From positions 1 to 64,000 of the forward strand of contig CAIMTJ010000018.1 of the NCBI GenBank assembly GCA_903844385.1: a stretch of DNA of 64,000 nucleotides. The letters are read 5' to 3'. Every line of letters begins with the position of its first letter. Within the stretch, counting starts at the first letter, position 1. This document shows, one piece after another, positions 43,263 to 46,413 of this stretch. The stretch comes from an uncultured Burkholderiales bacterium (GTDB lineage: Bacteria; Pseudomonadota; Gammaproteobacteria; Burkholderiales; Burkholderiaceae_C). The notes below the pieces were generated by a model. It ran no database searches, was not told the origin of the DNA, and saw only the letters and a list, made by a program, of their open reading frames with translations. The position numbers and the translations under genes are program-made.

Positions 43263-43865
43263 TTAGGGCGTTGACTTGCGATCCACCATGGCATGCGCGA
43301 TGGTGCCCAAGTCCACATACTCGAGCTCGCTGCCCAAGGGCACTCCCCGAGCCAAGCGGGTGACCTCGATGCCCCTTTTCTTGAAGGCCTGGGACAAGAC
43401 GTGCGCTGTGGCCTCGCCCTCGGCGGTGAAATTGGTGGCCAAAATCACTTCTTTGACCACGCCATCGTGCTCCACACGCTCAAAAAGACGCTTGACCCCC
43501 ACTTCTTGAGGACCGATCCCATTCAAGGGACTGAGTGCCCCCATCAGCACAAAATAAAGCCCCTTGTAGGACTGGGTGCGCTCAATGGCGGTTTGATCCG
43601 CAGGCGTCTCAACCACACACAAGCGTGATGCGTCACGACTCGGATCAAGACAGGTTTCACACAGGGTGGCGGAGGTAAAGGCGTAGCAGCGCACACAATG
43701 CTGCACCGACTGAGCGGCATGGGCGAGGGCTTGGGAGAGCAATTGTGCGCCAGCGCGGTCGTGCTGCATCAAGTGATGCGCCATGCGAGAGGCGGATTTT
43801 TCACCCACCCCAGGCAGTCGCCTGAGCGCCACGATGAGGGCATCCAAAGCGTGCAATGAGGTCAT
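43263..43865 (-). CDS. recR: Recombination protein RecR
   Basis: [19 protein letters not shown], Cys4 zinc motif, TOPRIM. Confidence 0.97.
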
Positions 43866-43947: not shown

Positions 43948-44271
43948 TCAAAAGGGCAACTTCATGCCACCAGGCAAGCCCGCGGTCAGTTTGCCCATTT
44001 TGGCCTCTGAGGTGTCTTCGGCTTTTTTGGCCGCATCGTTAAAGGCAATCATGATCAAGTCCTCCAGCATCTCGGCGTCGTCTTTCATCAATGAGGGATC
44101 GATCACCACGCTTTTGACCAAGTGCTTGCAAGTCATGGTGATTTTGACCAGGCCGTTGCCCGCCTCGCCCGTGACTTCCACGTTGGCCAATTCGTCTTGG
44201 GCTTTTTTTAAATTCTCTTGCATGGCTTGGGCTTGTTTCATCAAACCGGCCAGTTGTCCTTTGTTGAACAT
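43948..44271 (-). CDS. ybaB: YbaB/EbfC family nucleoid-associated protein
   Basis: 107 aa; [38 protein letters not shown]. Confidence 0.96.
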
Positions 44272-44301: not shown

Positions 44302-46413
44302 TCAATCCAGCGTTTTTGCAGTCGTTGGGGCCGCTGTGTGGGTCAATGACTTGATGGAGCCGGGCACAATCGTCGCCTCAAACTCTTGCATCATTTTGAG
44401 CACAAACGGGTCCCCCAAAATTTTGGCCTCAGCCACCAGTTGTTTCTCGTAAGCCATTTGGGCCAAGCGCATGGCTGGCGAGTCACTCACCGCCCCCATC
44501 TCCAAGCGCAACTCCACGCTCAAGCCCAAACTCGTGAGCGCCAGTCTCAAACGCTCTTTGGCGTTGGGACTGCTCAAGGTCTCACTCTCAATCCTCAGCA
44601 AAATACTCTGCTCGTCTTTGGCCACCAGTTGGGACTGGAGGGCCAATTCGCGCGACAAGGACTGTACCAAGTCGGCATCCATCAATTGTTGCACGGTTTG
44701 CATCCAAACGTCGCCCATCGGGGTCGGTTTGAGGTGAGTCTTGAAGCGCTCAAGGCTTGAACTGGTGGTTTTATCGGCGTTTTGAGGGGCCACGCGAACC
44801 GCCACAGCCACCAAGCTTTCGCCCTTGGCAGCAGGCTCTGGGAGGAGCCGCGAGTTGAGCGTGGAATCGTTTTGAGCGGGCTTGAGCGCAGGGCTTGAAG
44901 CAGGCGTGAGAGAGGGGCCTGGTCGAGCCAATCCATGGGGGTAGCCCATGTCCCTCACCGGTAAATCCCGTCCCGAGTGCGACAAGCCTGGCGCTCGCGC
45001 CACAGGGCTTGGTTGCGAATGGACAGGCGTGTCTGAACCACTGGCCAGCAGTGAGCCATGGGGAGCATGTGAGTCATGCGAGTCATGCGAGGCGGACTCA
45101 CCGAAGTGAGGTGTGGCTGACTCTAGGCCAGGTGTGCGCTCAGCGTCCTCAGCGTCCTCAGTTGCATCATTTGACTCAGGAGTCGAAGGGGATGTAGTGA
45201 GGGTGGTGAGGGGGGTGAGGGGGGTGGGGGGGGTGGGATTTAGGCCGGCAAATTCAAGAGTTTTTTTTTCAGCCACATCCTCATCCGACACCGAAGGGCT
45301 GGAGGACTTGAAGGCGAGCAAGCGCAAGAGCACCATCGTGAGCCCAGAGTACTCGTCGGGAGCCAATCCGATCTCAGCGCGACCTTTGATGCAAATGCTG
45401 TAGAGCAACTGGGTTTCATCTTTGGGCAGGGCCTTGGCCAACTCACGGGTTCGGTGCTCGTCTTGATCAGACAAAGCATCGGGGTCGTCGTCTTGAAGGC
45501 CCGCCTGTGGGAGAGCACTTGAGAACTGCATCACCGCCATGCGTTGTAAAACATAGGCCATGTCCTCCAAGGCTTGGGAGGCACTCAAGCCCTGGGACTG
45601 CAGCTGCCTGGCCAAAGCAATGACGGCGGGGCCATTGGATGCACCCAAGGCCGCGATCAAGGCAAAGACATGTTCTCGGTCCACCGATCCCAGCATTTGT
45701 CTCACCTCGGCAGCACGAACCGCACCGGCACCATAGGCGATGGATTGATCGGTGAGGGACAAGGCGTCGCGCATCGAACCTCTGGCGGCACGGGCAATCC
45801 AGTGCAGCGCTTGGGGCTCACAAACCAGGCCCTCGCTTTGCAAAACCTCACTCAAGTGATCTCGAATGGTTTGAGCGGCCATGGGTCTCAAATTGAACTG
45901 CAAACAGCGCGAGAGCACCGTGACGGGCACTTTTTGCGGGTCGGTGGTGGCCAAGACAAATTTCAAATACTCGGGGGGCTCCTCCAAAGTCTTGAGCATC
46001 GCATTGAAAGCGGGGCCCGTGAGCATGTGCACCTCATCGATCATGAACACCTTAAAGCGACCTTGAACTGGCTTGTAGACCGCTTGCTCCAAGAGTTGTT
46101 GCACCTCGTCGACGCCTCGATTGGAAGCGGCATCGAGCTCGGTGTAATCGACAAAGCGCCCGGCATCAATGGCCAAACACATTTCACACGTCCCACAGGG
46201 TGCAGGCGTGATGCCTTTTTCGCAATTGAGCGATTTGGCCAAAATTCTGGATACTGTTGTCTTGCCCACTCCGCGCGTGCCGGTAAAAAGATAGGCGTGG
46301 TGCAGCCGTTGCGTCTCCAGCGCATTGGAGAGCGCTTGCACCACATGCGACTGACCGACCAATTGGGCAAAGGTCTTGGGGCGGTACTTTCTGGCTAAAA
46401 CAAGGTAGGACAT
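44302..46413 (-). CDS. dnaX: DNA polymerase III subunits gamma/tau
   Basis: MSYLVLARKYRPKTFAQLVGQSHVVQALSNAL; Walker A GTRGVGKTT; A9 tract at codons 382-385. Confidence 0.97.
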   Translation of the reverse strand: MSYLVLARKYRPKTFAQLVGQSHVVQALSNALETQRLHHAYLFTGTRGVGKTTVSRILAKSLNCEKGITPAPCGTCEMCLAIDAGRFVDYTELDAASNRGVDEVQQLLEQAVYKPVQGRFKVFMIDEVHMLTGPAFNAMLKTLEEPPEYLKFVLATTDPQKVPVTVLSRCLQFNLRPMAAQTIRDHLSEVLQSEGLVCEPQALHWIARAARGSMRDALSLTDQSIAYGAGAVRAAEVRQMLGSVDREHVFALIAALGASNGPAVIALARQLQSQGLSASQALEDMAYVLQRMAVMQFSSALPQAGLQDDDPDALSDQDEHRTRELAKALPKDETQLLYSICIKGRAEIGLAPDEYSGLTMVLLRLLAFKSSSPSVSDEDVAEKKTLEFAGLNPTPPTPLTPLTTLTTSPSTPESNDATEDAEDAERTPGLESATPHFGESASHDSHDSHAPHGSLLASGSDTPVHSQPSPVARAPGLSHSGRDLPVRDMGYPHGLARPGPSLTPASSPALKPAQNDSTLNSRLLPEPAAKGESLVAVAVRVAPQNADKTTSSSLERFKTHLKPTPMGDVWMQTVQQLMDADLVQSLSRELALQSQLVAKDEQSILLRIESETLSSPNAKERLRLALTSLGLSVELRLEMGAVSDSPAMRLAQMAYEKQLVAEAKILGDPFVLKMMQEFEATIVPGSIKSLTHTAAPTTAKTLD
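45210..45237 (+). repeat. G-quadruplex-forming motif (GGGGGG TGA GGGGGG T GGGGGGGG T GGG) inside dnaX, on the template strand
   Basis: Four G-tracts with loops of 3, 1 and 1 nt. Confidence 0.85.
45261..45269 (-). other. dnaX: A9 slippery tract in dnaX (candidate transcriptional slippage / -1 frameshift site)
   Basis: Coding strand GCT GAA AAA AAA ACT CTT GAA; +1 nt gives AAC TCT TGA stop; -1 nt gives CTC TTG AAT TTG CCG GCC TAA stop. Confidence 0.7.

Follow-up and report, generated by a model that had tools for sequence, protein, structure and literature searches.

A conserved A9 tract inside dnaX of Comamonadaceae-type bacteria is very likely a transcriptional slippage site for a short clamp-loader subunit

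The stretch of DNA analysed here, referred to as the window, is 64,000 nucleotides long and comes from the 2.83-Mb draft genome of a Comamonadaceae-type bacterium. It contains the dnaX gene, which encodes the tau subunit of the clamp loader, followed by ybaB and recR (Table 1). The gene order dnaX-ybaB is also found in E. coli. The DnaX protein has matches to the Pfam families PF13177, PF22608, PF12169 and PF12170. The match to domain III stops at residue 370, while domain V (PF12170, residues 568-686) is the domain that binds polymerase alpha, and the two are separated by a long and variable linker. Residues 1-373 match solved structures of E. coli gamma/tau. The region up to residue 370 would be common to tau and to a predicted shorter protein resembling gamma.

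Table 1 Features of the dnaX region in the window
Feature	Position	Strand	Remarks
dnaX, clamp-loader tau subunit	44302..46413	minus	one open frame, 703 aa
N-terminal part common to tau and predicted gamma (AAA+ domains I-II, domain III; residues 1-370)	45304..46413	minus	Pfam
Part found only in tau (variable linker, C-terminal domain V)	44302..45253	minus	missing from predicted gamma
AGGA 5' of A9	45278..45281	minus	not conserved beyond nearest relatives
A9 tract, read GAA AAA AAA ACT, codons 382-385	45261..45269	minus	exact in 141/178 distinct family loci
TGA reached by gain of one A or by a -1 ribosomal shift (-1 frame)	45254..45256	minus	386-aa product ending EKKNS (predicted)
TAA reached by loss of one A or gain of two (+1 frame)	45240..45242	minus	390-aa product ending EKKLLNLPA (predicted)
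ybaB	43948..44271		next after dnaX; name from translation
recR	43263..43865		after ybaB; name from translation

Directly behind domain III, about 54% of the way along the 703 codons, the coding strand reads GAT GAG GAT GTG GCT GAA AAA AAA ACT CTT GAA, and thus contains a run of exactly nine A's (A9). Both of the other frames are closed soon afterwards, by stops 2 and 6 codons on. In simulated messages, runs of 7, 8, 10, 11 and 13 A's give products of 385, 390, 386, 391 and 387 residues respectively (around 42 kDa), while runs of 9 or 12 A's give tau. The first-pass annotation of the window had placed the A9 in the coding strand of dnaX and predicted lengths of 386 and 390 residues; the tract is exactly where it was described, and both lengths are reproduced by the simulated gain or loss of one A. 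It had also stated that both products end just after domain III, which agrees with the Pfam boundary: since the domain III match ends at residue 370, the two proteins would end 16-20 residues past it.

Considered on its own, the tract is not above chance. There is one A9 run in the window, compared to 1.96 expected from shuffles, and a pattern search of the 2.83-Mb genome gives 28 overlapping matches. Of these, only the dnaX tract falls well within an open frame of more than 400 codons. It is the conservation of the tract across the family that exceeds chance. Sequences of dnaX were collected from the GTDB genus of the window and from 80 named or metagenomic GTDB genomes, with further sampling of one genome per genus of the family, and of the order and class. 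Loci were located by the conserved core and not by the tract, the exception being one of the six seed peptides (DEDVAEKK) used in the 80-genome search. The family is here the GTDB family of the window, a family of freshwater bacteria to which Limnohabitans, Rhodoferax and Acidovorax belong, and it provides 178 distinct dnaX loci. A Limnohabitans genome belongs to the same GTDB genus as the window, and L008 and L040 are identical over the compared stretch of dnaX.

The A9 is found in the identical frame at 141 of these 178 loci; one locus has A8, and the remaining 36 have no run of eight or more within 50 codons. Where there is a run of at least eight A's within 50 codons of the core, its length is therefore exactly nine in 141 of 142 cases. 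The rest of the same open reading frames, amounting to 270 kb, contains no A9 or longer, the longest run being a single A8.

The codons used at the tract differ markedly from those used in the core of the same genes. The consensus of the 141 A9 loci is [G/C]AA AAA AAA A[C/G]N. The pair AAA AAA is present in all of them, preceded by GAA in 130 and CAA in 11, and followed by ACN in 106 and AGY in 35. AAG is found at the tract lysines in none of the 141, whereas it accounts for 65.4% of core lysines. The core uses GAG for 57.8% of glutamates and CAG for 69.7% of glutamines, and where the fourth codon is serine it is AGY in 35 of 35, as against 36% AGY and 64% TCN in the core. For lysine codon choice alone the probability is about 10^-144 if species are treated as independent, a figure which relatedness makes an overstatement; even with relatedness, nothing near neutrality survives for these codons, judged by codon use. 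The encoded residues vary (E/Q and T/S) while the A's stay fixed, and because a -1 heptamer needs just seven A's, it is the length of the run itself that is kept. Leucine is encoded by CTA at 16 of the 141 loci, where CTA followed by A spells a TAA in the +1 frame, compared to 1.1% of core leucines. It may be added that the alanine codon ahead of the GAA is GCT in 80 of the 141 A9 loci and in fewer than 10% of core alanines, an excess which implies that the base flanking the tract seems to be selected too.

The stops in the shifted frames are also maintained. Both frames have a stop within 10 codons at 95.6% of A9 loci, compared to 6-7% in codon shuffles. In the +1 frame, reached when one A is lost, the stop is at most one codon away in 77% (2.5% in codon shuffles), and in the -1 frame, reached when one A is gained, 97% of loci have it no more than ten codons on, compared to 30% in shuffles. 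After thinning for relatedness to 47 representatives with less than 50% downstream identity, both frames are closed in 93.6%, against 9.2% in shuffles. The positions of the stops differ among these thinned loci, and the closure has therefore been kept through sequence turnover. In family members without the tract, no site 4-25 codons behind the core was found that has both frames closed within ten codons.

These features suggest that the A9 is very likely a selected transcriptional slippage site of the Thermus type, which makes gamma. RNA polymerase would copy the T9 template, the rA9:dT9 hybrid could realign, and a fraction of the dnaX messages would have 8 or 10 A's, or 11 and more. Tau would be translated from messages whose A count is 9 or 9+3n, and all the others would stop within a few codons of either shifted frame, giving a gamma-like protein that has domains I-III and lacks the polymerase alpha-binding domain at the C-terminus. 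Transcriptional slippage can leave the message in any frame, which would explain why both shifted frames are closed at A9. We infer that slippage occurs at a useful frequency, that it is carried out by RNA polymerase and not by the ribosome, and that the clamp loader takes up the short protein. The first-pass annotation had proposed just such a Thermus-like slippage in place of the E. coli heptamer, to be checked in relatives by looking for AAG within the tract and for loss of the out-of-frame stops. Neither observation refutes it, AAG being absent from every A9 tract and the stops being kept in both frames, and the proposal is supported by the codon conservation together with the double closure.

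It is known that the T. thermophilus T9 template slips in both directions in E. coli (PMC6260861). Counted against slippage are the findings that A runs are less slippery than T runs for E. coli RNA polymerase, and that slippage on poly(A) was below detection in one assay of the reporter study (PMC6260861). The presence of two lysine tRNAs, suggested as the cause of slippage for Thermus, was considered and rejected, as tRNA-Lys-CUU does not track A9. In a pattern match of genomes, some of them incomplete, it was found in the A9 genomes G195, G216 and G214 and not in the A9 genomes G000 and G159, and it was found in G204, G206 and G151, which have no A9.

An alternative is that gamma is made by -1 programmed ribosomal frameshifting at A_AAA_AAA, without a role for RNA polymerase. 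This heptamer is in the right frame at A9 loci, with the -1 stop close by as described above, and it is shift-prone, though in E. coli its effect falls far short of that of A_AAA_AAG (PMC5009743). In addition, seven members of the clade described below have a bona fide E. coli-type heptamer instead. However, we regard frameshifting as the unlikely explanation. It does not account for the need for nine A's rather than seven, nor for the +1 stop, which is the more strongly kept of the two, and AAG, the better shift codon, is absent from all A9 tracts.

SD-like motifs before the A9 are not enriched, occurring at 29 of 141 loci (21%) compared to 15% of other linker windows. The AGGA that the first-pass annotation had described as SD-like is indeed present, but its role as a signal was not upheld: it is not conserved, its frequency is near background, and in the window it is probably incidental. 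A downstream hairpin is probably not the signal. In the window the 60 nt after the tract have no predicted structure (0.0 kcal/mol). Across the family there is little of it, though the RNA just downstream of A9 is predicted to be slightly more stable than that of other linker windows (mean -20.1 versus -18.4 kcal/mol), a small point against slippage. A plain shuffle score singles out neither this RNA nor the E. coli stem (z -0.5). The absence of SD enrichment, and the closure of a +1 frame for which a -1 shift has no need, point away from ribosomal frameshifting. A mixture of transcriptional slippage and a -1 ribosomal shift at the A9 is possible.

Sliding of the ribosome on poly(A), with loss of frame in both directions at the A9, would also require both frames to be closed, and such sliding is on record for iterated AAA codons in E. 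coli (PMC4363877). It is nonetheless highly improbable here. In a cell-free system from E. coli, A9 and A10 yielded little truncated product, and A11 was needed (PMC4363877), and there are just two full AAA codons at the dnaX A9.

The peptide A-E-K-K-T/S-L recurs within an otherwise variable linker, and might be kept for protein function, with the A run as a by-product. Codon choice rules this out, and leaves the idea scarcely credible: the synonymous codons AAG, GAG, CAG and TCN are never found at the tract though they are common in the core, the residues vary exactly where the A's allow, and a constraint on the peptide predicts no upkeep of out-of-frame stops. A chance homopolymer, or a phase-variable tract varying at the DNA level, has a negligible probability despite the roughly two A9 runs expected in the window by shuffling, and is ruled out by the family comparison, since phase-variable tracts differ in length between strains and this one departs from nine at a single locus among those with a run.

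The history of the A9 tract was followed using a tree of the DnaX core with 204 rows, and a second tree of 79 rows built with a mixture model. In the former, one clade of 68 rows (SH-like support 97) holds all 62 family rows with A9, and the mixture-model tree recovers the same clade with a support of 95. The family rows outside this clade are all without A9. Runs of A8-A11 occur separately in other families of the order, mostly near a stop in one or both shifted frames. Inside the clade, the 204-row tree has six departures: L255 has A8, L252 and L311 have no A tract, and L305, L110 and L345 have A_AAA_AAG. In L311, a run of eight G's (GGG GGG GGC) is found at about the equivalent place behind the core.

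Seven species of the clade carry an E. coli-type A_AAA_AAG in place of A9, these being five species of the genus g109, L110 and L345. All five of the g109 species (the genus of L305; L350-L354) carry GGGAG or AGGAG upstream of A_AAA_AAG, and their -1 frame stops one codon past it. L110 has GGGGAG and a -1 stop after 3 codons, and L345 has GGAGG and a -1 stop after 1 codon. The +1 stops of the seven species are scattered, at 2, 18, 3, 40, 9, 52 and 38 codons. A block conserved at the nucleotide level, GGGAGTGCCGCCGAG, precedes the heptamer in g109 and L110, in L305 with AGGAG; in both, the SD-like part is about 15 nt before the heptamer, compared to 10 in E. coli dnaX. The tree implies three changes to A_AAA_AAG, with support that is weak in places. 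A_AAA_AAG appears to have replaced A9 in two to three lineages inside the clade, and because the block is common to g109 and L110, two or fewer origins are possible.

The A9 loci have both frames closed and SD-like motifs near background, whereas the A_AAA_AAG loci have an SD-like motif and only the -1 frame closed, which is the contrast expected between slippage and -1 shifting. We hypothesise, with some confidence, that the family keeps a second clamp-loader product and swaps the means of making it. Slippage of RNA polymerase on an exact A9 would be the general case, having arisen a single time in the ancestor of the Comamonadaceae-type clade, and a few nested lineages would then have moved to -1 frameshifting of the E. 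coli type, with an SD-like motif and only a -1 stop.

According to two papers describing the work of Larsen et al. (2000), T. thermophilus dnaX makes gamma by slippage on an A9 with stops in both frames (PMC1088944, PMC5009743). The dnaX of the window resembles it in having a single open frame for tau, exactly nine sense-strand A's after the clamp-loader core, and stops close by in both other frames, with a short gamma-like product predicted. It differs in that it comes from another phylum, that the A9 is kept across a whole family, that slippage is here a prediction from sequence, and that the tract of T. thermophilus lies further downstream, seven-eighths of the way along the gene. The likeness to E. 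coli dnaX is that the same gene is predicted to give gamma from within tau, with the -1 stop two codons on compared to one in E. coli. However, the window reads A_AAA_AAA_A and has no A_AAA_AAG heptamer, no SD is conserved, a stem-loop is not clearly discernible, and stops close the +1 frame too.

A further group of dnaX genes consists of two ORFs with A7-A10 runs, in which gamma is read without a shift and tau is the product of recoding (Antonov et al., 2013, PMC3711429). These also have a poly-A run at which transcriptional realignment is thought to act. This reversed organisation is ruled out for the window by the 703-codon open frame, which has no zero-frame stop right after the tract, and so tau is what is read without a shift. 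The GeneTack survey was confined to genes whose frame is broken, so that a dnaX with A9 in an open frame would escape it (PMC3711429). The dnaX entries in Recode-2 are from Escherichia, Neisseria, Salmonella and Vibrio. An arrangement of the reversed kind was noticed in another GTDB family of the same order (f20). In L195/L414, L212/L424, L213 and L413 the zero frame of dnaX ends after about 450 residues, the length of a gamma. The C-terminal domain of tau is encoded in the +1 frame, next to a GGGGAGA that these loci share; there is no A run, and tau would be made through some +1 event.

The slippage mechanism itself is known. Its use throughout a family, its conservation at the nucleotide level and the switches to the E. 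coli type are apparently undescribed: a literature search, with subscription journals mostly outside it so that an earlier report is possible, found none for Comamonadaceae, Acidovorax or Burkholderia. In the literature searched, proven slippage in a one-frame tau dnaX rests on Thermus. In dozens of genera of Betaproteobacteria that are well studied and can be cultured, the A9 design is the norm, and its conservation implies selection for a short clamp-loader subunit in these bacteria, a point of relevance to the debate as to whether gamma matters. For what is one and the same product, some close relatives seem to rely on slippage by RNA polymerase and others on frameshifting by the ribosome, which makes the two routes directly comparable. 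Genome annotation of such genes gives tau alone unless told otherwise.

Two further observations concern the linker. In L023 (genome G031), which belongs to another family, the sequence at codon 154 after the core reads GCT GAA AAA AAA ACT GA, an A9 with an immediate -1 stop far down the linker. In the window, four copies of a 9-base G-rich repeat are found on the template strand of dnaX at 45197-45235, starting about 25 bases downstream of the A9, with a C8 run in the coding strand as well. In L006 and L035, the nearest relatives, these features were not seen in the sequence just behind the A9. The repeats could be connected with polymerase stalling, or could be a simple expansion of the linker.
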